From a candidate division Zixibacteria bacterium SM23_81 (GTDB taxonomy: Bacteria > SM23-81), in contig LJUY01000072.1 of assembly GCA_001304015.1 (NCBI GenBank), positions 1 to 20,682 of the forward strand: a stretch of 20,682 nt of DNA, in the 5' to 3' direction. The position numbers and the translations under genes were made by a program. The notes beneath the pieces were generated by a model that had not been told where the DNA came from, did not search any database, and was given only the letters and a program-made list of their open reading frames with translations. Below are positions 4,763 through 20,682 of this stretch, in pieces. How positions within the stretch are numbered: position 1 is the first letter of the stretch; the number at the start of each line of letters is the position of its first letter.

Positions 4763-5425
4763 TCAACGAAACAACAGTTTAATTTTGCTCCATGTGGATC
4801 TCTGGGCCACCGGAGCGCTCTGGTTGGAAGCCCCCGGAGTGGCATGAGTGAACTCGACGAAATCGACGGCTGGATTGTTGCTATCGCTGCCGTTCGGGCT
4901 TCTACCCAAGCTGGATCCCGCAGCGACTGCGGGCGCACCCCCACCACCCATCTCCCCACCATCGCCATACCACATAGCGTCGATATCTTTTTGCCCATCC
5001 GCCGACAGATGAAGATCATCTCCCTCATGATCGAGGCTTAACTGAGAATAATCTTGACCATACTCGATAACCTGAACACCTGAAGGCACAGTCCACCGGT
5101 CAGTAAAGCATTTCCCGTCGTGGTCTTTGCTATCGTCCAAATCGTTAACCAACAACAAATATCCACCAGCAGGAATGAAAGTACCCGTCACAAAGACCAG
5201 ATCACGGCTTTTGGCATTTCCCATGAGAGGATGATCGGCCATTATCCATCCGCTGATGTCCATATCCTCCGTTCCTAGATTGTACAGCTCAATCCACTGT
5301 AGGTCGTCGTCAAGATCGTCGGTGTCCCCATGGTACATCACCTCGTTGATCACTACCTGAGCTTGGCAAAAACCGATGGCGAAAAGAAAAACGATTGTGA
5401 TGAACAGAGGAAGAAAAATCTTCAT
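4763..5425 (-). CDS. Secreted lamin-tail-domain (LTD) protein
   Basis: A 220-residue exported protein. I place the start at ATG 5425 because AGGGGGTG lies about 9 bases upstream; the GTG at 5437 overlaps that site. Residues 1-22 are a signal peptide (MKIFLPLF, hydrophobic core, cut near CQA/Q). Residues 24-130 form a lamin-tail Ig-like fold: VVINEVMYHG, DLQWIELYNLG, DISGW and FIPAGGYLLLVND are the family signatures. Bacterial LTDs occur in secreted nucleases, phosphatases and surface proteins and are thought to mediate anchoring or ligand binding. No catalytic domain follows; the C-terminal part is Gly/Asp/Ser-rich and ends SKIKLLFR, without a recognisable type IX sorting tail. The gene stands alone, with its own promoter (5477-5505) and terminator (4700-4732). 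The precise role is unknown. Confidence 0.85.
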   Translation of the reverse strand: MKIFLPLFITIVFLFAIGFCQAQVVINEVMYHGDTDDLDDDLQWIELYNLGTEDMDISGWIMADHPLMGNAKSRDLVFVTGTFIPAGGYLLLVNDLDDSKDHDGKCFTDRWTVPSGVQVIEYGQDYSQLSLDHEGDDLHLSADGQKDIDAMWYGDGGEMGGGGAPAVAAGSSLGRSPNGSDSNNPAVDFVEFTHATPGASNQSAPVAQRSTWSKIKLLFR

Positions 5426-5476
5426 GGTGCTCTTCACCCCCTGGGCAACTCTTTACTGCTGGGAGAATCGAACTAC

Positions 5477-6252: not shown

Positions 6253-8118
6253 TCATCTGAGAACCACCAACTTTTTGGTATCAACAAGATGCCCAGCTGT
6301 GAGACGATAGCAATAAATACCACTAGCCACCTTTTCGCCCTCCGCGTCTTGTCCATCCCATTGGATGGTATAAGCCCCCTCCTCCTGCAATTCTTGAACC
6401 AAGGTCCGAACGAGCTGTCCGCAAATGTTGTAAATTTGAAGGGTCACATATGAGGGAACATGAATCTGATATCCGATCTCTGTGGCCCGATTACATGGAT
6501 TGGGATAGTTTTGATCCAGATGAAACGAAACCGGCACTGGATATTCCTCATCTCCGTTCTTTTCTCCCACGTCAATGGCTTCTATGGTAACTGTATCGCG
6601 TTTTGTAGAGTCGACGTGAGCCCATATTATGATTGTGTCGTTGGAATGCACACCAATCTGATTGTTTACGTCGCTGCTGAAGGAGGCCACAGTTACCATA
6701 CCGCGATAAAGACCCGTCGCAGCGCCCGTTTCAATGAGAGCGGCTCCTATACCATGGGGATCCTTCTGGCTAGTGATGATGACTAAAGCGGGCTCGATGA
6801 AGGAGCTATTCCAATCGACGCCCTCTAGCTGGAGGTAGAGCGAGTCTCCGATTCCCAACCTGCGCATAACTGGGAGAGCGTAGCTGCTATCGCTCATCGC
6901 GGCCACCGAACTTACCTCTGAGGGCTCTCCGGGAATGCTGTCGCGGGGGGAACTGAGGAAGGGAAAGAAGTTGCAGTCCCCCTGAATAAGAAAGGCTATA
7001 GATAAAACGTCCGTCAGCCACCAGAAGTTGTTGCTCAGATCGATGCTCTGTGTTGTGGTATTGATAACCTCATAGTCTCCCGTTTGATATGTATTGCAAT
7101 AAATGTGGTTATGGTTGGCGGTGACTGGACCCGAGTCGGAAATAAGATACACGCCGTCGACGTTGTCCAATATGATGTTGGCGCTTACCGTCGGAGAGGA
7201 GTTTCCTAAAGTACGCACTCCTCCCCCGAAAGCGCCCACATTGGAAACAATCGTATTGTGCTTGATCAATGGGGCACAGTCGTAGCAGCATGCAATGCCA
7301 GCCCCATTCTCTCCAGCGATGTTCCCAATGACCACGTTGCCCATAATTGTGGGCGAAGATCCCATGTAACAGTCAAGCCCCGCCCCGGTTTGTATTACAT
7401 GATTGCCCTTAACGAAATTATAGCGAATCACTGATGAAGAGTGATCGTTAAAAACGCCTCCACCCCATCGAGCAGTGTTGTGGGAAATGGTGTTGCTGTC
7501 GATGACCGCTGAGGAATAATAACAATAGATGCCTCCGCCAAAACGAGAAGCGGTATTTTGAGCGATGTGGTTGTCGACGATCCTCGGGGCTCCCAAATGA
7601 CAATAAATGCCGCCCCCAGACCCGGTGCCTCCCTCGACAGCATTTTCCCTAATGACGTTGCCCTTTATCAACAAGAATGACTCACTGCAATAAATGCCGC
7701 CACCATTGGAACTCCATCCGCCGGTAATAGTGAAGCCGGAGGTCACCGTGAGGTTGTCAAGGTTTTGACAATCCAGCACCCTTTCGGTCATATTGGCGTC
7801 GATGACCGTTGACAATGTCCCTTCCTCACTGGTCAAAACCACACCGTTCTTCATGATTATAGGAAAAACCTCTCCCGACGAGGTATCATATTCTCCCGGT
7901 GCAACGAGGACAGAATCGCCCTCTGTTGCTGAATCTTCCACGGCTGCTTTAATGGTTATAACCTCAGCAGGTACATACCATGTTTTCGCCTGAGCGCTGT
8001 TTCCCGAGATCACCGCACACATAGAAAGAAGACCAATTGAAAACCTAATCCTGGCAAAGATCCTCGTTTGGCACTGGGCCCACTTCTTTCCTCGACGATT
8101 CATCATGATCATCTTCAC
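6253..8118 (-). CDS. Secreted right-handed beta-helix protein with type IX-like sorting tail
   Basis: About 621 residues if started at GTG 8118, 12 bases after AAGGAGGG; ATGs at 8112, 8106 and 8103 are alternatives. The frame is open further, to 8289, but that stretch contains the terminator of the upstream gene and cannot be coding. A long basic n-region and hydrophobic core (ending SAQA/K near residue 44) form the signal peptide. The body has seven beta-helix rungs of about 26 residues, most opening with G-G-G-(I/V), such as GGGIYC, and carrying N-x-(I/V)-x-x-N turns; this is the Pectin_lyase/Beta_helix fold. The last 95 or so residues are a FlgD-Ig / Por secretion tail (LDQNYPNPCNRATEIGYQI, VRTL, WDGQDAEGEKVASGIY). 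Surface export by a type IX-like system is inferred. No catalytic residues of a known lyase stand out; polysaccharide binding or adhesion is plausible. Confidence 0.87.
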   Translation of the reverse strand: MKMIMMNRRGKKWAQCQTRIFARIRFSIGLLSMCAVISGNSAQAKTWYVPAEVITIKAAVEDSATEGDSVLVAPGEYDTSSGEVFPIIMKNGVVLTSEEGTLSTVIDANMTERVLDCQNLDNLTVTSGFTITGGWSSNGGGIYCSESFLLIKGNVIRENAVEGGTGSGGGIYCHLGAPRIVDNHIAQNTASRFGGGIYCYYSSAVIDSNTISHNTARWGGGVFNDHSSSVIRYNFVKGNHVIQTGAGLDCYMGSSPTIMGNVVIGNIAGENGAGIACCYDCAPLIKHNTIVSNVGAFGGGVRTLGNSSPTVSANIILDNVDGVYLISDSGPVTANHNHIYCNTYQTGDYEVINTTTQSIDLSNNFWWLTDVLSIAFLIQGDCNFFPFLSSPRDSIPGEPSEVSSVAAMSDSSYALPVMRRLGIGDSLYLQLEGVDWNSSFIEPALVIITSQKDPHGIGAALIETGAATGLYRGMVTVASFSSDVNNQIGVHSNDTIIIWAHVDSTKRDTVTIEAIDVGEKNGDEEYPVPVSFHLDQNYPNPCNRATEIGYQIHVPSYVTLQIYNICGQLVRTLVQELQEEGAYTIQWDGQDAEGEKVASGIYCYRLTAGHLVDTKKLVVLR

Positions 8119-8243
8119 TCTGTTCAGTTTCCCTCCTTCGGCCCGTCTTCTATGAATACGCAGACCAGCTCTTTTTGTTACCTTTCGATACATCAATGCA
8201 TCAAGTTCACCTTCAATTGCCGGATGATTTAAAGAACTCATAG

Positions 8244-8273
8244 AAAAAGCCCGATCCACCCCCGGATCGGGCT
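8244..8273 (-). terminator. Rho-independent terminator of the yyaL-flavodoxin-ogt operon
   Basis: On the minus strand a 10-bp stem AGCCCGATCC / GGATCGGGCT (arms 8273-8264 and 8257-8248, six-base loop) is followed by a T-run (8248-8244). It lies 36 bases after the ogt stop codon and resembles the hairpin at 11884-11909. Confidence 0.87.
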
Positions 8274-8308
8274 CGTTAAATATCATCATTCAGATGCATC
8301 CTGGAACT

Positions 8309-11883: not shown

Positions 11884-11949
11884 AGCCCAATCCGAGATCG
11901 GACCGGGCTGAAAGATAAATCAAGAGCGGCGATCACCGCGACCGCCGCT
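11884..11949 (-). terminator. Paired hairpins closing the nucleotidase operon
   Basis: After the nucleotidase stop, the minus-strand RNA meets a 7-bp stem (arms 11943-11949 and 11925-11931, AGCGGCG / CGCCGCT) and then an 11-bp stem with two G-U pairs (arms 11899-11909 and 11884-11894, AGCCCGGTCCG / CGGATTGGGCT). The first is followed by CTTGATTTATCTTTC and the second only by TTGTT. The T-runs are weak, so termination may be partial or Rho-aided. Confidence 0.55.
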
Positions 11950-11966: not shown

Positions 11967-13646
11967 CTATAAGCTGCCCAGCATGTGCTTCAGTTTCGGG
12001 TCCATCTGCGCGGTGTTATCCTCCATCCAGCGCCCATCTAATCTCGGGTTAAGGGGGCTATGATTCTTGACATAGGATTCTACCATGCTCCTGACCATCA
12101 CGCCGGTGTAATAGATATCCTCCTGGGGTACCGTCTTCAGAATCTCAAGGCCGATGTTGCCCTGGGCGATATAGTCAGTGGTGGCCACCTTGTAAATTTT
12201 GTTCGGATTCAGCGTCTCGCCCCCAATCTCAAAGGTGGTGATGCGGTCGAAATCGGATCTGTTCCGGTTGAAAACGATCCTGGCCCCGGACATGATCACC
12301 CCGGCACGCATGCCCTTAACCCGCCACTCCATCACGGTCTTCAAAAACTCTCCGGTCATGTTGATGACCACCACCCGATTGCCAAAGGGCAGAACGTTGA
12401 AGATATCCCGGGGGGTGATTTCCCCCTCGGAGATCTCGGCGCGAACCCCGCCCAAATTAGTGAAGGCGAAATCGGCCCCCGTTCTCTCCCGCATGGCGTC
12501 CATGGTCACATGTCCCATCAGATTGGTGGCTGCATCTCCCCGGTGCAACCTGGTCAGGGTCTGTCCCACCGGCTCGTCCATCCCTTTCTCGGCCTCGGCG
12601 ATGAGGGAGTCCACCTTCACGCACATGGCATTGAGGGGGCAGAATTCGTCCTCAAACAGCGTAATCAGACCGCCATCCACAGCCGGAAGGGAGTATCCGG
12701 AAATGCTTTTGGTCTGGGGGTCTACCTCAAGGGTCACCTGACCAAGACCGGTGAAACGGCCATAGTTTTGAAAAAGAAGGGTGTGATGTGAGGGATCCTC
12801 CCAGGGCTCCCGGTATCCCTTTTCGATGTGTCCACAGAACATCAAGTCTATCCCCGACACCTGATGGGCCAGCTCCATGGCGTTCAGCCGCCACTGCTTC
12901 TTCTCTCCCCGCTGTTTCCGCTCCTCGATCTCACCCCAACCCTCCTCGGGATCGTACGGGATACCCATGTGCACCAGGCCGATGACCATATCGGCCCCCT
13001 TCTCTCGCACCTCCTTGACGTACTTCTCCATCACCGGGGCAACGGGCAGAAACTTCAAGTTCTCGACGTTCTTGGGAAAGGCATAGATCGGTGTGTCCGC
13101 GGTGGTGAGCCCGATGATGGCCACCTTCAAGCCCTTCACATCTTTGATGACGTAAGGCCTGGCGTAGTCCACGATCTTGCCTGTCTTCGCATCTATGGTG
13201 TTTGCGCTGAGGAAGGGAAATTTCGCTATTTTGCTCAGTCGGCGCAAATTCTCCACGCCCTCGTCGTACTCGTGATTGCCGATGCCCAGGGCATCGTAGC
13301 CCAACATGTTCATAGCGTGGATGATGGCCTCGCCTTTGGTGAGGGTTCCCACCGGTGTCCCCTGGAAGATGTCCCCGGCGTCCAGCAGCAGAAAACCATG
13401 ATCCTTTTTTTCAGCCTGTTCCCGTGCGCAGCAAATGTAGCGGCCTGCGGTGGCCGCGCCGCCAACGATGGGTGGGAACTCCCGGTTCAAAAAGGTGGCC
13501 TCACTGGAGCCGATGTGGCCGGCGATGTCATTGGTGTAAACGATGTCGATGATAATAGGCTCCGAGGCCAGGGACAATCCACTAGCGCAGAGTAGAAGGC
13601 TAAAAAACAGACTTACATAAAACGTACTTCGAATCGTGTTGTTCAT
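11967..13646 (-). CDS. Exported UshA-like 5'-nucleotidase / 2',3'-cyclic phosphodiesterase family protein
   Basis: 559 residues starting at ATG 13646 (GAGG eight bases upstream), with a signal peptide (core FYVSLFFSLLLCASG, cut near SLAS/E). The metallophosphatase domain spans about 30-310: YTNDIAGHIG (Asp40), LLDAGDIFQG (Asp92), GNHEYDEG (Asn124, His125), LVHMG (His226) and CGHIEKG (His273). The C-terminal substrate domain (about 360-540) has NLGGVRAEISEGEIT and LPFGNRVV. Family members hydrolyse nucleotides, cyclic nucleotides or related phosphoesters outside the inner membrane. Two metal-site positions differ from UshA: the His of D-x-H is Ala42 and the Gln after G-H-x is Glu275, so metal binding or substrate may be altered. 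It is the last gene of the six-gene operon, 17 bases after the FadL-like gene, and could salvage phosphate or nucleosides from incoming or extracellular nucleotides. Confidence 0.9.
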   Translation of the reverse strand: MNNTIRSTFYVSLFFSLLLCASGLSLASEPIIIDIVYTNDIAGHIGSSEATFLNREFPPIVGGAATAGRYICCAREQAEKKDHGFLLLDAGDIFQGTPVGTLTKGEAIIHAMNMLGYDALGIGNHEYDEGVENLRRLSKIAKFPFLSANTIDAKTGKIVDYARPYVIKDVKGLKVAIIGLTTADTPIYAFPKNVENLKFLPVAPVMEKYVKEVREKGADMVIGLVHMGIPYDPEEGWGEIEERKQRGEKKQWRLNAMELAHQVSGIDLMFCGHIEKGYREPWEDPSHHTLLFQNYGRFTGLGQVTLEVDPQTKSISGYSLPAVDGGLITLFEDEFCPLNAMCVKVDSLIAEAEKGMDEPVGQTLTRLHRGDAATNLMGHVTMDAMRERTGADFAFTNLGGVRAEISEGEITPRDIFNVLPFGNRVVVINMTGEFLKTVMEWRVKGMRAGVIMSGARIVFNRNRSDFDRITTFEIGGETLNPNKIYKVATTDYIAQGNIGLEILKTVPQEDIYYTGVMVRSMVESYVKNHSPLNPRLDGRWMEDNTAQMDPKLKHMLGSL

Positions 13647-13663
13647 TTTCGTTGCCTCACAGA

Positions 13664-14917
13664 TTAAAATTGATAATCGATGCTCACCATGGCGCGCAGC
13701 AGAGATTCTTTCACCTTATCCTTGCCCTCCCTCTCCACACCGCCATAGTAGCTTTCCGGAAACAGATCCGTCCATCTCCAGGAACGAGTTCCCACCTCTC
13801 CGCCAAAATCGATATGAAACTTCTCCAGAGAGAAGCCCGTGCCGAAAGTCACGGCCGTGGTGGTGACCTCTTTGTCCTGATAACTGGGTTGATATCGAAA
13901 GCCAAACCGAAAAGGATAACCCAGGAAAAAGCGATGCTCCAGGCCGCCCGAGAATTGCCAGACGTCGTCAAATTCCAGTGTGTCGTTGGCCGCGTCCTGG
14001 AAGTGAGACCATTTGGTAAATTCCACATCGAAATGGAGACGAGCGGTCAGGTCGTTTCGAGGGCGGTACTCGACTCCCATGGCGATGCTGTAAGGATAGG
14101 TTAGCTCCAGCTTCCTGGAGGAATCGGGCGAAAGGGAGGATTTGCTGAACAGCTTGGCCGTCCCGTCCAGATTGGCTTCAGATCGGTAGGTGAGACCAAG
14201 ACGAATCCTGGGAGATATCTGGGCCATGGCACCCAAGTTGACGTTCATGCCGTCGCAGTCCACCTCTTGACGGTCCAGGGCGATGATAGTGTCTCCGAAG
14301 GCTTTGCTCTCGAATTGTCCATCTCCATTGAGAAAGTTGAGCGCGGCCCCCAAATTGAGCCACGAAGTGACTTTCTCGGCCAAGCCCACGGAAATGGCGT
14401 AGATCCCTCCTCGATGCTCCATGATGTTGTTGCCGACAAAGAGGTCGTTGTCATCACGCACTTCCTCGTGGTATTGGTATTTCCAATCGTATACGGGGTA
14501 GCCCGCTACACCTATAGTGGGAATAGGGCCCTGGTCAAAGTTCTTGGCTACCCCAAAGGCATATCCACCGTAAAGATGGGAGTTCATGGCATATGTGTTG
14601 AAACCCACAAAGCTGTCGAAGGAATCGTGGTAGGGAAAGGCTCGATCCTCGTCGACCTTCACCACCTGAACAGAGCTGGTGACCCCGAAATTCTTGATCT
14701 CAGACAGGCAGGCGGGATTCACACCCAGGGCAAAGGCGTTGTTCTGGAAAACCACGCCGGTGCCTCCCATGCTCAAAGATCGGGCGTCCAAGGAGCCAAT
14801 TTTCTCTCCGTAAGGATAGCTAAAATAAGTAAACGCTGCGCTTTCATTGGAAAAAAAGCATGCGGCCAAAAGAGACAGCACCAGCAGAAGCAAAAGCCCT
14901 TTGAGAAAAACCATCAT
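13664..14917 (-). CDS. OmpP1/FadL/TodX-like outer-membrane beta-barrel protein
   Basis: About 417 residues. GGAGG touches the first ATG (14923) too closely, so ATG 14917, seven bases downstream of it, is the likelier start. A hydrophobic signal (FLKGLLLLLVLSLLAAC) is followed by the FadL-type N-terminus (RSLSMGGTGVVFQNNAFALGVNP, with the N-P-A-C variant of NPAGL). Alternating amphipathic strands run to a terminal aromatic (SIDYQF), as expected for a barrel inserted by BamA. FadL relatives pass hydrophobic or aromatic molecules across the outer membrane; some FCB members have other cargo. L-A-A-C at residues 17-20 fits a lipobox, which is odd for a barrel; signal peptidase I cleavage a few residues later is the alternative. 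It is 27 bases after the HhH-barrel gene and 17 bases before the nucleotidase, hence cotranscribed. Confidence 0.85.
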   Translation of the reverse strand: MMVFLKGLLLLLVLSLLAACFFSNESAAFTYFSYPYGEKIGSLDARSLSMGGTGVVFQNNAFALGVNPACLSEIKNFGVTSSVQVVKVDEDRAFPYHDSFDSFVGFNTYAMNSHLYGGYAFGVAKNFDQGPIPTIGVAGYPVYDWKYQYHEEVRDDNDLFVGNNIMEHRGGIYAISVGLAEKVTSWLNLGAALNFLNGDGQFESKAFGDTIIALDRQEVDCDGMNVNLGAMAQISPRIRLGLTYRSEANLDGTAKLFSKSSLSPDSSRKLELTYPYSIAMGVEYRPRNDLTARLHFDVEFTKWSHFQDAANDTLEFDDVWQFSGGLEHRFFLGYPFRFGFRYQPSYQDKEVTTTAVTFGTGFSLEKFHIDFGGEVGTRSWRWTDLFPESYYGGVEREGKDKVKESLLRAMVSIDYQF

Positions 14918-14944
14918 CCTCATACCTCCGGATTTGCCGAATTC

Positions 14945-17470
14945 TTACCAACTGTAATCTATCTGCAAACGGTAACTTCGATTCTCGTCCCTGACGTTGG
15001 ACCCTTCCGGGTCGGATCCAAATGGATCGTTGAAATTTCGGGTGTCGATGTAGGATTGAGCCCGCATCTGGTCAATGGTATACTTGAACCTTAAGGCCAG
15101 GCGATCTGAGATGCGATCGGACACAGAAAACCAATAGCGATAGGATTCGCCGTCCAGAACGACGAACTCGCTGTCCTCAAAGTTCCAGAAGAACCCATCG
15201 TAGATCCCAAAGAAAGCACGTAGCTTCAGCCGGTCGTTGAAATTGTGTGTCATCGAAATTCCCAGCGCCTCTGAGGGGGATGTGGCATTGCCGGTGCTGG
15301 GATTGTTTCCATCCGGCTCCACGTTATCGATCAGGCGTGGACGGGGCGGCCAGCGGGTATAACCCGTGACGTAGATGGTTTCCAGCTCGTCGTAGCCAGA
15401 GATGCGAAGCCTCAGGCGTAACCGCGTGTCGATGTTCTTAAAGCTCGTCGCGGTGAGAGTGTTGTCCTCATCCCGGTAGAGATAATTTTGGCGTAACTGG
15501 AGCCTTACCGGATAGATGGGCTGATAGTCGATCTTGGCCACCACGCGCATATGCTGAGCGTTGTCGGCCTTCCGTTTCCAAAGGTCGAACTCCAATTGGG
15601 GTGTGAAGGCCTGGGAGACGCGATAGCGAGAGGTGACGTAGAATCCCTCCTCGGCCTGGGGCTGTGCGGAATTATCAAACACCATGGCGTATAAAGGATT
15701 GGTCATGTAGAACTCGTCCTCGAAGATGGTTCTCTTGAGTCGCTGATAATTGGAGAAAGCACGGCAGTAAGGGTTGTCATAGGCTACGTCGTAGTTTCGA
15801 TAGATCCCCAAGATGTTTAAGTTGTTATACTGCGTGTAAGCGCTAAGAACCAGCGCTTGAGGGTTGCCGTCCAGCTCCACTTGGCGATCGAAATTCCGGC
15901 CTTTATCCAGGATGGCATACTCCCCCTGCAGGGAGATGTTCTTGCAGATGGTCTGAAAATCCACCCCGTATACCCGCCGATAATCGTCCCACCACTCCTC
16001 AGCTCCCGCACTTCCGTGGGGACTCTCGAAGGAGTTGAGGTATTCACTGTCGGCCGCAGTTGTTTTATCCCGACGATCTGTTACGGTGGATAGTTTGGGG
16101 ATGAAGGGGCGGTCGTAGATGCTCTCATAGAAGGTGAAGCCCAGATGGGTGCCCAGCCAGGGGCTATATCTCAGATTGCCACCCCAGGTCTTCTCGCGGA
16201 GAACATCCCTCATGGGCAGATAACCAGCTTCGGACAGAATTTTGTTTTCGACCTTGGGGGTCATGATGATGTAGCTATTGGCCGTGGAATCGGCATTGAG
16301 GATGACGTCCTTCTTATCCCATGAGAAGAAGAACAATCCCCTCAGCTTCCAGAAGGAGGCCTGCATGGCGATCCCGTCCAGGGCGAACTCCTCGGTGCGA
16401 GAGAGATCACCGACGATCCCATCCAGCCTTTTATCCCAAGAAAAGCCTGATTTTCGCGGTTTGAAGAAATCGGTGTTCTCCATCACCAGCCCTTGACCGA
16501 TGGTTACCATATAATTGCCCAGATAGAGGCGGTCCAGGTGAAGGGGACCCAGTTGCTGATTCTCGATGCCCACAAATCGTTTCACCGTGGGAAAGGTGCG
16601 GGTCGTGAACAGGCTGGTATGTCCCATCTTGACGTCGGTCAAGGGCAATTCCTCGCCCAGTCCCCGATAGGCCATAAAGCCGGCCCGGATCTTCTGACCC
16701 CAGCGCATCCTCACTTTATGAATGGTGGCCGGAGAGGCGTTATCTAAGCCCAGGCGGTCCCACCAACGCACCTCCCCTTCATTCAACAGTTGATCAAAGT
16801 CGCTGAAAAGCGGCGTGTTGTAAAGGCGAAATTGGTAATCGCCGTGGAACTCCAGCCCCTTGTCCGGCTCTGAATAGCGCAGGAAATTCCTGGCGTTGCG
16901 GTATCCCCAGTCGGAGATGCCCGGCACTCGCCCCAAATCCTGCCTGCTGCGCAGCCCGCTGGTCCTCTGCCGCTGCTGAACGATGGCCAGGGCATCGACC
17001 GGAGAGACGTTCTGCAGGTTCATCAGGTCGGTGATGGTGGCTGTGTTGACGTTGATGGGGTCCTTGGCCTGATCGATCCAGATGTCGATAAGCCCCTCAT
17101 TGGTTCCTTCTTGAGCGGCCCACTCTTCGATGCGGTAGTAGATGGCGTTCATCCGGGCGATCTCCTCGTCCATCTCCTTGACTGGCAGGATCTCAATCAG
17201 GGGCTTGATGCGATCGAATTTGCGCTGATCGAAGCCAGGCAGTTTGCGGATATCGTAGATGCTTTTGAAGTAGGAGGTATACTCACGATATTCGTACAGC
17301 GTCAGGGCATCTTGTTCTTCGATGGGCAGAGACCGAAGCTCCTCCAGAGTGGCCCGATTGATGTCCAGTTGCCGGAGCGGGGGCTCTACGGCATCATAGG
17401 CCAAGATCACCCTCGGTTCCACCAGGAGCAAAAGGCTGGCGATGATTATCAACAGTGATTTTCTGATCAC
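14945..17470 (-). CDS. ComEA-type helix-hairpin-helix domains fused to a large outer-membrane beta-barrel
   Basis: 841 residues starting at GTG 17470 (GAGGGG six bases upstream), with a signal peptide (SLLIIIASLLLLVEPRVILA). Two HhH modules of the DNA-binding ComEA type follow: residues about 34-94 (LDINRATLEELRSLP, YDIRKLPGF) and about 138-198 (INVNTATITDLMNLQ, DLGRVPGIS). From about 205 to the end the protein is strand-rich, with alternating hydrophobic and polar residues and many aromatics, ending RSYRLQIDYSW; the terminal aromatic is typical of a BamA-inserted barrel. In competence systems ComEA binds incoming DNA in the periplasm. Placing such domains on the periplasmic side of a barrel suggests a DNA-binding or DNA-passing pore, but this is inference. 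Similar HhH proteins with long uncharacterised C-termini exist in Bacteroidota. It lies between PorV-like and FadL-like genes at 26- and 27-base spacings. Confidence 0.85.
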   Translation of the reverse strand: MIRKSLLIIIASLLLLVEPRVILAYDAVEPPLRQLDINRATLEELRSLPIEEQDALTLYEYREYTSYFKSIYDIRKLPGFDQRKFDRIKPLIEILPVKEMDEEIARMNAIYYRIEEWAAQEGTNEGLIDIWIDQAKDPINVNTATITDLMNLQNVSPVDALAIVQQRQRTSGLRSRQDLGRVPGISDWGYRNARNFLRYSEPDKGLEFHGDYQFRLYNTPLFSDFDQLLNEGEVRWWDRLGLDNASPATIHKVRMRWGQKIRAGFMAYRGLGEELPLTDVKMGHTSLFTTRTFPTVKRFVGIENQQLGPLHLDRLYLGNYMVTIGQGLVMENTDFFKPRKSGFSWDKRLDGIVGDLSRTEEFALDGIAMQASFWKLRGLFFFSWDKKDVILNADSTANSYIIMTPKVENKILSEAGYLPMRDVLREKTWGGNLRYSPWLGTHLGFTFYESIYDRPFIPKLSTVTDRRDKTTAADSEYLNSFESPHGSAGAEEWWDDYRRVYGVDFQTICKNISLQGEYAILDKGRNFDRQVELDGNPQALVLSAYTQYNNLNILGIYRNYDVAYDNPYCRAFSNYQRLKRTIFEDEFYMTNPLYAMVFDNSAQPQAEEGFYVTSRYRVSQAFTPQLEFDLWKRKADNAQHMRVVAKIDYQPIYPVRLQLRQNYLYRDEDNTLTATSFKNIDTRLRLRLRISGYDELETIYVTGYTRWPPRPRLIDNVEPDGNNPSTGNATSPSEALGISMTHNFNDRLKLRAFFGIYDGFFWNFEDSEFVVLDGESYRYWFSVSDRISDRLALRFKYTIDQMRAQSYIDTRNFNDPFGSDPEGSNVRDENRSYRLQIDYSW

Positions 17471-17496
17471 AGTTCTCCCCTCGGGCAAATGTGCTT

Positions 17497-18396
17497 TCAG
17501 TCTCTACCGAAACGATAAGAGATGGCAAACTGATGGGTTAAGGGCAGCACCGAGTGGTTGATCAAAGCATAGTCGAAATGGACTCCTCCATAATTAAAGC
17601 CCAGCCCTCCCATAACCCTGTCGGGCTTGGTCTGAACGCCGAAGCGAAGGGCCACAAAAGAGGCGATCTGGGCCTCGATGCCACCATCCAACCGAGTCTC
17701 TGCCCCGAACCTCTTAGACAGGTCCAGCAGCGAGACCACGCCAGGATAGGGTTGATAGGCAAAGCCAAAAGTCATGTATCGGGGGAGATCCTCCCGATAT
17801 CCCTTGCCCATGCGCGGCTGGTTGAGATTCCGGATGGCGGCGCCCATGCGCGTCCTGCTTCGCAGCACGGCTATTAAGCCCAAGTCGACCCCCACAGTCT
17901 GAGCAGATCCCAAAGGCTGTCCCAAATGAGAGGTTCCAAATTCCAAGGAATAGAGGTTCAAGGTGTATCCCAGAGCTAGAGAGGAGTGCACGTCACTCAT
18001 CACGGAAAAACCGTGGCCCAGGCTAAAAGTCTTCTCGCTCTGCAAATCCTCGTCCCCATAGGTGACCGAGAACTTCTGAAAACCCAAACCCATCACGCCA
18101 TACTTGGGCAAAGGAACGGTGACGCCGGCGGCCATGTGCTCCAGAAAATCCAGTCCGTAGGGTCGATGGTAAGAGCTGAACAGCTGATAGTTCCTCAGCT
18201 GGCTCAGCCCTGCGGGATTATAGAAAACGGCGCAGCCGTCATCGGCCAGGGCCGCGAAGGCCCCTCCCATGGCCCGCGTTCTTGGACTGGGGCCGATATT
18301 GTCGAACACGGCCACCGCAGACTCACCCATCAGGAAGGTAGTCAGCACAACCAGGATGGTCACCCATCCCGCTGTTCTCCTTTTTCTCAAAGTCAT
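17497..18396 (-). CDS. PorV/PorQ-like outer-membrane protein (UPF0164-type)
   Basis: About 299 residues. AGAGGAG directly abuts the ATG at 18396, so the TTG at 18390, six bases after it, may be the true start; the open frame back to GTG 18465 overlaps pspC and has no ribosome site. A signal peptide (VTILVVLTTFLMGESAVA/V) precedes the family N-terminus RTRAMGGAFAALADDG, then FYNPAGLSQL, followed by amphipathic strands to YRFGRD. PorV/PorQ relatives are outer-membrane components of the type IX secretion pathway, where PorV shuttles cargo to the surface attachment complex. In FCB candidate phyla many uncharacterised PorV-like proteins sit beside other barrels and exported proteins. Here it could assist export or assembly of the FlgD-tailed protein encoded upstream or the HhH barrel downstream. 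Confidence 0.83.
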   Translation of the reverse strand: MTLRKRRTAGWVTILVVLTTFLMGESAVAVFDNIGPSPRTRAMGGAFAALADDGCAVFYNPAGLSQLRNYQLFSSYHRPYGLDFLEHMAAGVTVPLPKYGVMGLGFQKFSVTYGDEDLQSEKTFSLGHGFSVMSDVHSSLALGYTLNLYSLEFGTSHLGQPLGSAQTVGVDLGLIAVLRSRTRMGAAIRNLNQPRMGKGYREDLPRYMTFGFAYQPYPGVVSLLDLSKRFGAETRLDGGIEAQIASFVALRFGVQTKPDRVMGGLGFNYGGVHFDYALINHSVLPLTHQFAISYRFGRD

Positions 18397-18457
18397 CTCC
18401 TCTGTGAGAGAATTGGCAGAAAATGTCTCTTCATCAATCGGCAATATAATCCTCAGT

Positions 18458-18676
18458 CTAGCCACTCTCTGGCGCCTCGGGCACCACCAGCCAGGCGATG
18501 AGATAGGCCAGCACGCCTCCGCCCCCGGCTAGGGTGAAGAAGATCCACAACAAACGAATCAAAACCGGATCCACATCGAAATATTCGCCGATCCCGCCGC
18601 AGACCCCGGCCAGTTTGCGATCTTTCCGGGAGCGATACAACCTCTTCGGTCCTGTTGGGGCGCTTTTTCCGCTCAT
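18458..18676 (-). CDS. PspC-domain small membrane protein
   Basis: 72 residues starting at ATG 18676, with GAGG five bases upstream; the in-frame GTG at 18682 overlaps the ribosome site. RLYRSRKDRKLAGVCGGIGE (about 13-32) and FDVDPVLIRLLWIF (34-47) are the PspC signature, followed by a glycine-rich turn and a second hydrophobic stretch (GVLAYLIAWLVVP), as in the usual membrane-embedded PspC fold. In enterobacteria PspC senses inner-membrane stress, often caused by mislocalised outer-membrane secretins or porins. Its place upstream of three outer-membrane barrel genes fits such a monitoring role, but stand-alone PspC proteins are common and may act otherwise. It is 29 bases after the OB-fold protein gene and 61 before the PorV-like gene. 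Confidence 0.92.
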   Translation of the reverse strand: MSGKSAPTGPKRLYRSRKDRKLAGVCGGIGEYFDVDPVLIRLLWIFFTLAGGGGVLAYLIAWLVVPEAPESG

Positions 18677-18705
18677 AAGCACCTCGAAGTGAGAATGAAA
18701 TTCAC

Positions 18706-20682
18706 TCAGTCCAGAGGCATCCCCACGACGATGGGCACCTGATCTGTGGTGGTCTTTCCCTCGTCTCGGTCCGTAGCCTCCAAATGGCAGATGTAAACCC
18801 CCACAGGAACCACCTCTCTCAACTCATCCCTTCCGTTCCACATCGCCTGCCCAGGGCCGGCATACTGTTCCTCATCGATTAAAGTGCGCACCAGTCTTCC
18901 CTCGATGTCGAACAGGCGCATGACTACACGGCTGTTGGTGGGCACGTTGAACTCGATCAGGAAGCCGTCGTCCTCTGAGAAAGCATGACGATTGGGCACA
19001 AACACCCGAGGCTCTATGGCCAGGACGGCCTCTTTCAACCCTTCCACGGTCACCTTAGGAGAATTCTGAATATCCTTGAGGGATTGTCCCTCCATGGCGG
19101 TTTTGATGCGAAAGGTGGATGTTTCGCCAATTTTGGGGGCATCCAAATAGGAGATGGCGATGATCCCCGGCTCACACACGGCGGCCCCGTGAATGAGAAT
19201 GGTCCGATCCCCGGAGATCTCCAGGCTGGTGCCCTCGGGAAATCCCACTCCCGAGAGCTGAACACCTGTGGTGTCCGGACGGTTCCAGGTCCAGCTCATG
19301 GGGATCACCACGGAGATGTCGGTCAGGATGCAGTCGACGTCGCTCCAGATGGTGATGGTCTCAGTGAGGTTCTTCCTCGAGGCCTTCACCTTCGAGGGGG
19401 AGATGGAGGCATATCCGATGCCCTCGGTGACCGGCTGACCCTCGAAAATATCCTCCTGATAGCCGGTGAGCATCTGATAAGAGGTGCTGTACACAGAGCC
19501 CGTCCCGATGGCGGTGATTGTGTCGCCCTCGGCGAACTCGCTGACGTCGATGCCGGTGGTCTCCCAGATGCGAATGGTGTACCGCCCGCTGCCATCGTCG
19601 ATATTGAGGTTATAACCCCCGCCAGCGTAATAGGGATCCTCCTGCATGACGCCGGTCACCTGGATCCAGGTGCCATCCCATTCTCCCGATTGGGCTCCGT
19701 CGGTGGACAGGATGACGGGATCGGGCAGGGGCTGGTTGGTATCCAGGACCGTCACGGAGACATCGGTGATCTCGGTGGTGGCGTCGATCGCTCCAGTGGC
19801 CAGATAGTCCTCGATGGTGCCGGTGACCTCCACCAGATTTCCTCTGGAAATGGTGGGGATGATGTCAAAGTCAAAAAGGTTGATGCCCCGCCCGGACTCG
19901 TCCTGCAGGTAGGCTCGGGTATACTGATCGTCCAGCACCCCCGCTCCGATGGTCACTACGCCTTTGATGGTAACGACCTTCCCCTCGTATTCGCCGACAT
20001 TGGCCTGTATGTCAGCGATGGGGGTGTACTGCGTTTCCTCCTCCCCGACCATCACCTGCGGTGAGCTGGCGATCTCTGCCAGAGTTCCCCCGGCTACTGC
20101 CGTTTTCACCACAAAAATGGATGTCGTGGCCGTTCCCGGCGAGGTCAGGCCAGCCACGATGACCTGGCCGATATCGGCATCGGTCACCGCGGCTCCGTTG
20201 ACGGTGATGGTATCACCGCTGACCGCCGTAGTAGCAACGGAAAAGCCTGCCCCTGAAAGGCTTACGTCCGAGGCATGGGCAGACCAGTTCCAGTTTTGAG
20301 GAACGATGATGGCCACCGAGAGCAGTGTGTTGCTGCCGTCCCCCACCACTGTGAGGGTCTCGGTCACTGCCTGGGAAATGTCCACGCTATCGGGCCAGAT
20401 GGAGGCTGTTCCCGAGCCATCCCCGGGCATGCCCGCGCGCACCGTATATGAATAAGTACTAGCGGGCGCGTTGGTTGGATCAAAAGATTCCAGGGCCTCG
20501 TTATCGACGGCCTGGATGTAGTAGTCAACGGTCGTCCCCTCTGCCTGGGGGCCGATCTGGCCAGTATAGACGTCATCTCCGGCCGTCTGGTCCGGGGCGA
20601 CCCCGTCATCGGCCATGGCTGTGGACTGCCAGGAAGATCCCCCATCCGTGGAGTAAAAGAGAGACACAGAAGAGACAGACCC
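18706..20682 (-). CDS. Large secreted OB-fold protein with duplicated Ig-like domains and FlgD-type tail (5' end outside window)
   Basis: The frame is open to the window edge, so the N-terminus is missing; 658 residues are visible (numbered here from the GTG at 20667). FYSTDGGSSWQST to TYSYTVRAG (1-78) resembles an Ig-like segment often found in secreted hydrolases. Two related domains, A (86-208) and B (417-543), share S-P-x-x-V, PxxWxW, V-x-(L/S)-S-G-x-G-F and an H/N-G-A-A-V motif. Between them are two OB-fold-like modules (about 216-300 and 305-410: YEGKVVTIKGVVTIG, YLQDESGRGINLF, WIQVTGVM, LNIDDGSGRYTIRIW), as in secreted nucleases and nucleic-acid-binding proteins. The C-terminus (about 555-640) is a FlgD-Ig tail (FNVPTNSRVVMRLFDIEGRL, VRTL, GVYICHLEA). 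No nuclease motif is visible in this part. It is the first visible gene of the six-gene operon. Confidence 0.82.
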   Translation of the reverse strand, partial: GSVSSVSLFYSTDGGSSWQSTAMADDGVAPDQTAGDDVYTGQIGPQAEGTTVDYYIQAVDNEALESFDPTNAPASTYSYTVRAGMPGDGSGTASIWPDSVDISQAVTETLTVVGDGSNTLLSVAIIVPQNWNWSAHASDVSLSGAGFSVATTAVSGDTITVNGAAVTDADIGQVIVAGLTSPGTATTSIFVVKTAVAGGTLAEIASSPQVMVGEEETQYTPIADIQANVGEYEGKVVTIKGVVTIGAGVLDDQYTRAYLQDESGRGINLFDFDIIPTISRGNLVEVTGTIEDYLATGAIDATTEITDVSVTVLDTNQPLPDPVILSTDGAQSGEWDGTWIQVTGVMQEDPYYAGGGYNLNIDDGSGRYTIRIWETTGIDVSEFAEGDTITAIGTGSVYSTSYQMLTGYQEDIFEGQPVTEGIGYASISPSKVKASRKNLTETITIWSDVDCILTDISVVIPMSWTWNRPDTTGVQLSGVGFPEGTSLEISGDRTILIHGAAVCEPGIIAISYLDAPKIGETSTFRIKTAMEGQSLKDIQNSPKVTVEGLKEAVLAIEPRVFVPNRHAFSEDDGFLIEFNVPTNSRVVMRLFDIEGRLVRTLIDEEQYAGPGQAMWNGRDELREVVPVGVYICHLEATDRDEGKTTTDQVPIVVGMPLD

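Follow-up and report, generated by a model that had tools for sequence, protein, structure and literature searches.

The window analysed here is the whole of a contig of exactly 20,682 bases (LJUY01000072.1; contig C15 of genome G000) from the candidate division Zixibacteria bacterium SM23_81, a metagenome-type assembly of 3.07 Mb. It carries on its minus strand a run of six genes. The core of this run is a conserved, previously undescribed operon encoding a secreted OB-fold protein, a PorV-like outer-membrane barrel and a protein in which helix-hairpin-helix (HhH) domains are joined to a second barrel (hereafter the HhH-barrel). In our judgement there is an even chance that the operon specifies a cell-surface complex, displayed by way of type IX secretion, for the capture and scavenging of nucleic acids. 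An original prediction, made from the letters of the window alone, had proposed surface nucleic-acid capture or nucleotide scavenging for these genes. Reading frames and domain profiles confirm that all six are present and that their domain identities hold, the OB folds being sub-threshold by sequence in the window protein and modelled in its orthologue from the sister genome G001.

In the direction of transcription, the run starts with the exported multi-domain OB-fold protein (18706..20682), whose 5' end is cut by the end of the contig. There follow a small PspC-domain protein (18458..18682; PspC, E 2e-16), a probable PorV/PorQ-family barrel (17497..18465, with a likely start at 18396; NF033709, E 3e-18) and the HhH-barrel protein of 847 amino acids (14945..17488). 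The last two genes encode a FadL/BamG-superfamily barrel (13664..14923; Toluene_X, E 2e-13) and an exported UshA-type 5'-nucleotidase family protein with an altered metal site (11967..13646; 5_nucleotid_C, E 8e-34, together with Metallophos and a signal peptide). With the longest possible starts the gaps between the six genes are -8 to 23 bases. Spacings of 17 to 61 bases had been reported initially, and the value of 61 between the PspC and PorV genes fits a PorV start at 18396. The PorV-like protein matches NF033709 over its whole length, with 66.5 bits for a cut-off of 90.

The neighbourhood of the HhH-barrel gene is strongly conserved. The search for orthologues covered 98 relatives, one genome collection and additional phyla, each locus being inspected one gene at a time; neighbours were counted over 32 genomes wherever flanking DNA was present, genomes of one phylum being non-independent. 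In 29 of the 30 checkable genomes the HhH-barrel gene has a PorV-family gene directly upstream on its own strand, and in 27 of 28 this is in turn preceded by a gene for a secreted protein with OB, lamin-tail (LTD) or FlgD_ig domains. Downstream, a FadL-like gene is found 3' of the HhH-barrel gene in 25 of 30 genomes, and a nucleotidase-family gene occurs within the run in 17. The original prediction depended on the OB-fold, PorV-like, FadL-like and nucleotidase genes staying beside the HhH-barrel gene in related genomes, and these counts strongly support it. Because the order OB-PorV-HhH-barrel is kept in about 30 genomes of several phyla, at identities of about 28-80%, the cluster is not a product of chance. 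The sole departure from this core order is locus L115, and the KSB1-type loci (L056-L058) and genome G010 (L046) retain the three core genes only. By their record titles the carriers are Zixibacteria-, KSB1- and Krumholzibacteria-type metagenome-assembled genomes, to which two further phyla are added by genomes G006 and G033; a profile search of the phylum of G092 (167 genomes) gave no HhH-barrel match, no Bacteroidota set being among those searched. An LTD gene follows the nucleotidase gene in G001, and OB/LTD genes occupy this place in G072 and G069. PspC, initially counted as part of the system, is kept only in G000 and G001 and was rejected as a core component; its presence is incidental.

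Two observations concern individual loci. A record titled Candidatus Puniceispirillum, an alphaproteobacterial name, contains a copy of the KSB1-type operon (L065, DYHQ01000037.1), and this bin is probably mislabelled or mixed. In the phylum of G006, two exported CAP-domain proteins are encoded after the FadL-like gene and, where the sequence extends that far, ahead of the nucleotidase gene (L047, 5831-7368; L116, 51-1631; L118, 4402-5959).

The HhH-barrel protein contains two HhH domains (HHH_3, PF12836, E 5e-20), whose helices are also present in the AlphaFold2 (AF2) model. This model, obtained from a 15-row alignment (pLDDT 67, pTM 0.65), comprises a signal helix, the two HhH domains and a barrel starting at residue 213. 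HhH domain 1 (17186..17371, minus strand) has the hairpins LPIEEQDA and LPGFDQRKF, and HhH domain 2 (16877..17062) a near-invariant QNVSPVDA hairpin; the profile match and the alignment place both domains, and neither has the G-h-G signature. Both HhH domains are predicted to be periplasmic, and the wide outer-membrane barrel (14948..16852) to have about 24-26 strands. The nearest structures to this barrel are the FimD/PapC usher barrels (Z about 16 over 380 residues, rmsd about 4-5 Å). This modelled resemblance is one of size and fold class only and does not inform on the cargo. When the full HhH-barrel profile was run against PDB sequences, it matched HhH proteins only, leaving the barrel unmatched.

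A second, shorter family of 660-690 amino acids, with a single HhH domain and a barrel, is present in the same genomes. Its barrel matches a profile of the barrel alone (E 1e-17 to 1e-21 in most genomes, 3e-9 in G077), and a PorV gene lies directly upstream in G000, G001, G002, G004 and G056, though not in G077 and G061. In the genome of the window this second PorV and HhH-barrel pair (L049, 1320-4187, on contig C72; 671 amino acids, one HhH domain) stands without OB, FadL or nucleotidase genes. Since the shorter family is also preceded by PorV and has a matching barrel, PorV plus HhH-barrel constitutes a recurring unit.

The truncated OB-fold gene can be interpreted through its full-length orthologue in G001 (L053:3841-6597), which is 70% identical and encodes 918 amino acids with a signal peptide. 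The orthologue contains an ExeM-type OB region, a sub-threshold choice-of-anchor-X stretch, two OB folds in tandem and, at its C terminus, a FlgD_ig-like domain. It matches the ExeM/YhcR-type model NF033681 in its OB part only (E 9e-12); among orthologues, E values for the ExeM/NucH OB region range from 9e-12 to 6e-23, and DUF5689 and LTD are matched as well. DUF5689 was considered as a specific marker and discarded: it was found in only 9 of 98 relatives and also in B. subtilis. In the window protein itself both OB (0.0015) and FlgD_ig (1.8e-5) remain below threshold. The AF2 model of the G001 orthologue is of low overall quality (pLDDT 57, pTM 0.31) and only its well-predicted domains were used. 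It places OB folds, modelled with good local confidence, at residues 474-580 and 576-677, with Z scores of 10-12 in VIA-align to nucleic-acid-binding OB folds; the matches include anticodon-binding, RPA, Stn1 and HIN OB folds. The pair corresponds to 19450..20028 (minus strand) of the window. OB folds take many ligands, so the modelled pair provides no more than a suggestive link to nucleic acids. An extension of the first gene had been suggested, in the original prediction, to see whether it has a nuclease domain. The full-length orthologue answers this question: no EEP or SNase catalytic domain was detected in its 918 residues or in the other OB proteins scanned.

The C-terminal domain (18709..19023, minus strand) is the best-conserved part of the OB proteins and resembles type IX sorting domains. 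The FlgD_ig match in the window reaches 25 bits (cut-off 27), and Por_Secre_tail in orthologue L056 reaches 19.4 (cut-off 23). SprA, the type IX translocon protein, scores above cut-off in 24 of the 98 relatives, and these include all 11 full carriers of the HhH-barrel, a co-occurrence with a hypergeometric probability of 2e-8, or 2e-6 with the phylum of the window collapsed, in which kinship is not fully accounted for. In G000 the SprA gene is on contig C94 and scores 799 bits summed over the frame. Surface capture had been proposed initially without a type IX component, and this link had been missed. A ComEA-like HhH protein of canonical type, about 150 amino acids long, is encoded directly downstream of sprA in at least four genomes (L127 on G000 C94, L128 on G061 C1, G001 C258 and L050 on G002 C25).

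Nucleotidase and nuclease families recur in the operon. In the phylum of G033 the run reads OB(DUF5689/ExeM)-PorV-HhH-barrel-FadL-like-PLD-nucleotidase family in four of four genomes, which represent one family and two genera. The four PLD proteins have a signal peptide and intact HxKxxxxD and GSxN motifs, and match NucT-type models below cut-off; they are best described as exported, NucT-like putative nucleases. NucT of Helicobacter pylori reportedly salvages purines from extracellular DNA, according to the title of a 2013 paper by Liechti and Goldberg. The nucleotidase-family proteins beside these intact PLD genes appear to be pseudo-enzymes (L048, 5765-6673; L109, 3205-4101; L110, 7504-8412; L111, 12092-12997).

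The most telling relative is genome G097, where a single run (L125, L141 and L142; C44, 30000-52700) encodes PorV, a PorV-OB-OB-HhH fusion, a small HhH protein and an HhH-barrel whose barrel region is homologous to that of the window family (E 4.7e-21). The same run includes a 1422 amino-acid protein with LTD, ComEC-type metallo-beta-lactamase and FlgD_ig domains, and a protein with a five-fold canonical ComEA repeat and LysM (net charge +16). It is followed by the type II secretion genes GspC, D, E, F, G and minor pseudopilins. To judge from its domain content, G097 ties the PorV, OB and HhH modules to one another and to DNA-type domains. It is a single distant genome, and SprA was not detected there. 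In another distant relative, G075 (L126, C14), a PorV-HhH-TPR fusion occurs, an LTD gene lies directly behind the FadL-like gene, and a CBM-like domain is present. The G075 barrel did not match the barrel-only profile, and its relatedness is one of synteny and HhH domains only.

Gene linkage, protein families, predicted folds and co-occurrence with SprA are established for this operon, and they permit a mechanism to be proposed. The OB-fold/LTD protein would be exported through its C-terminal domain by type IX secretion and held at the cell surface by its dedicated PorV-like barrel, where it may bind extracellular nucleic acid or its fragments, as its domain families suggest. The PorV-like protein and the wide HhH-barrel would form a physical complex, a possibility raised by their conserved adjacency in two paralogous families. 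The HhH-barrel could then provide a route across the outer membrane, with the HhH domains acting as periplasmic adaptor or receptor, while the FadL-like barrel and the 5'-nucleotidase, joined in one phylum by the exported putative PLD nuclease, might trim the products and pass them on. DNA binding, transport and its direction have the status of proposals in this scheme. A nucleic-acid role is favoured, on the domain families involved, by the linkage itself, the ExeM-type OB pair, the LTD domains, the NucT-like PLD protein in each of the four G033-phylum genomes and the G097 relative. Related loci add the NucT-like putative nuclease, the LTD proteins and the canonical ComEA repeats to the cluster. 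The Riemerella transformation screen discussed below offers a precedent, as an analogy at the level of domains only.

Several observations weigh against this proposal. The G-h-G signature is absent from all four HhH hairpins in 15 of 15 aligned window-family sequences, and the net charge of HhH1 in the family, -7 to +1, is mostly acidic; by comparison, a separate ComEA-like protein of the same genome (L086) has PGIG and RGIG hairpins and a net charge of +3. Loss of the DNA-binding hairpin surface had been named at the outset as evidence that would tell against DNA capture, and it is seen in part. The tandem OB pair is strongly acidic in the window family (net -24 and, in the window, -26), less so in relatives, and DUF5689, a generic OB family, finds matches in Bacillus subtilis and Bacteroides too. 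The nucleotidase gene is missing from loci L044, L046, L056-L058 and L113. In the window nucleotidase the dinuclear metal site (DxH, GDxxQ, GNHD/E, H, GHxH/Q) is incomplete: NDIAG and GHIEKG stand where most relatives have NDxHG and GHxH (DxH to DxA, GHxH to GHxE), so that one metal site differs at two positions in G000 and G001, with the loss of a metal-ligand histidine. Membership of the 5'-nucleotidase family holds, and the phosphate recovery once proposed is doubtful for the window copy. The family members of the G033 phylum have lost nearly all metal ligands and are for this reason unlikely to be normal phosphatases. Lastly, nearly all carriers have a stand-alone canonical ComEA-like protein, and the genome of the window also has ComEC and secretins. 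Overall, the original claim for the cluster was right and a DNA role is plausible, against which the hairpins, the acidic OB pair and the metal site have to be set.

The serious rival, ranked below capture and scavenging and in itself rather unlikely, is a complex for the assembly or display of type IX-associated surface proteins without special ties to nucleic acids. The PorV-like protein and the HhH-barrel would form a station dedicated to exporting or anchoring the OB/LTD protein, and the HhH domains would serve only as protein-protein scaffolds, as for the HhH of GspK in type II secretion. The presence of SprA in every full carrier, the adjacent PorV, the second PorV and HhH-barrel pair without the other genes, the conservation of the sorting-like domain, the usher-like barrel and the degenerate hairpins with their near-invariant QNVSPVDA are all consistent with such a station, and the canonical HhH protein beside SprA in G000, G001, G002 and G061 suggests ties between HhH proteins and type IX secretion. 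It would leave unexplained, however, the recurring nucleotidase, the NucT-like nuclease, the ExeM-type OB and LTD domains and, in G097, the ComEC-type hydrolase together with the canonical ComEA repeats. An importer for natural competence, in which the HhH-barrel would be the outer-membrane channel delivering DNA to ComEC, either replacing a type IV pilus secretin or working alongside it, is improbable. The wide barrel and the five ComEA repeats of G097 would suit it, as would the Riemerella screen, where transformation required an HhH protein as well as a DUF5689 surface protein and the outer-membrane protein next to it (PMC8459023). ComEC does occur in 11 of 11 carriers, but it is a common gene and uninformative. 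Carriers also possess secretins and a stand-alone ComEA-like protein of canonical type, so the cluster need not serve competence, and the HhH-barrel was rejected as a simple replacement of ComEA; the missing G-h-G and a nucleotidase better suited to degradation than to uptake of intact DNA point the same way.

Two alternatives remain. Scavenging of another polymer or of a hydrophobic nutrient such as polysaccharide or lipid, with OB folds binding sugars and the nucleotidase acting as a general phosphatase, would accord with the FadL superfamily, the acidic OB pair, the CBM-like domain of G075 and the CAP-domain genes of the G006 phylum. OB folds also bind oligosaccharides. Glycosidase or lipase genes are not recurrent in the cluster, however, where the recurring enzymes are nucleotidase and nuclease, and there is little to recommend this interpretation. 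Least credible of all is an outer-membrane assembly module of the BAM type, with the FadL-like protein in the role of BamG and the surface protein in that of a BamH-type canopy. The best NCBIfam match of the FadL-like protein is indeed BamG (5.6e-24), and BamG and BamH are reported across most phyla of the Fibrobacteres-Chlorobi-Bacteroidetes (FCB) group (PMC12611786). The match, however, amounts to 82-85 bits for a cut-off of 250, whereas a gene on contig C37 of the same genome reaches 178 and its G001 counterpart 177; the identification as BamG was rejected on this far better fit. The FadL-like protein resembles BamG more than it does nutrient FadL, yet by these scores it is not the best BamG candidate of its genome. 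Moreover, no BamA, BamD or peptidyl-prolyl isomerase gene was found nearby, and the nucleotidase would be unexplained.

Other features of the window may be related to the operon. A hairpin with a weak T tail lies 3' of the nucleotidase gene (11925..11949, minus strand) and possibly marks the operon end. An exported LTD protein (4763..5437, minus strand) is a possibly associated part, its G001 orthologue being encoded about 300 bases downstream of the nucleotidase. Near the operon, positions 6253-8289 encode an exported beta-helix protein with C-terminal Por_Secre_tail (2e-6) and FlgD_ig (5e-12) matches, a likely type IX substrate.

For bacteria without a classical pilus route, above all the uncultured FCB phyla, the operon bears on how nucleic acid or its fragments pass the outer membrane, a task for which type IX secretion is not a known pathway. 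It is conceivable, though on balance doubtful, that capture and scavenging by this operon extends to a novel nucleic-acid import machine of FCB bacteria, comprising a PorV-partnered HhH-barrel channel and a type IX-exported OB/LTD receptor, apart from the pilus/secretin route. The OB-PorV-HhH-barrel operon offers named genes and a defined partnership of PorV with a wide barrel for expression, structure determination and testing. Even if the DNA interpretation fails, the operon would define another class of giant barrel that pairs with PorV, in addition to SprA.

Each component belongs to a known family; the conserved gene combination and the PorV-paired wide HhH-barrel were not found in the open-licence literature searched. 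The closest functional parallel comes from a transposon screen in Riemerella anatipestifer, itself a member of the FCB group, in which a DUF5689 protein (RA0C_RS04920) and a neighbouring outer-membrane protein (RA0C_RS04915) and, separately, an HhH protein (RA0C_RS02645) were needed for transformation (PMC8459023). Common to both is an OB/DUF5689-type surface protein whose gene adjoins that of an outer-membrane protein, and in Riemerella an HhH protein serves the same process. There, however, the barrel is TonB-receptor-like with a carboxypeptidase-regulatory domain, the HhH protein is a separate product of another locus, and PorV, FadL and nucleotidase are not named. The ExeM/NucH/YhcR proteins (LTD, OB and nuclease) share the ExeM-type OB region, the LTD seen in orthologues and the link to extracellular DNA, and ExeM depends on its OB-containing region for nuclease activity (PMC6085458); the OB protein described here has no catalytic nuclease domain, any nuclease being encoded by separate genes in some phyla only. 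The DNA-degradation loci of Ca. Izemoplasma (PMC8289736) similarly cluster an LTD protein, nucleases and phosphohydrolases for DNA scavenging, in an organism without an outer membrane, where ABC transporters replace the barrels and PorV and HhH-barrel are absent. With the Bacteroidota BamG system (PMC12611786, PMC12578637) the operon shares a FadL-superfamily barrel; this protein gives a weak match to the BamG model, and another gene of the genome a much better one. ComEA has the same two HHH_3 domains in its periplasmic part; here they are fused to a barrel and have lost the G-h-G hairpins, and canonical ComEA-like proteins are separate in the same genomes. Finally, the PorV/SprA translocon of the type IX secretion system also places a PorV-family protein beside a very large barrel and a sorting-like C-terminal domain on the cargo, but the HhH-barrel has no SprA match, is far smaller (about 24-26 predicted strands against 36) and carries HhH domains of its own.

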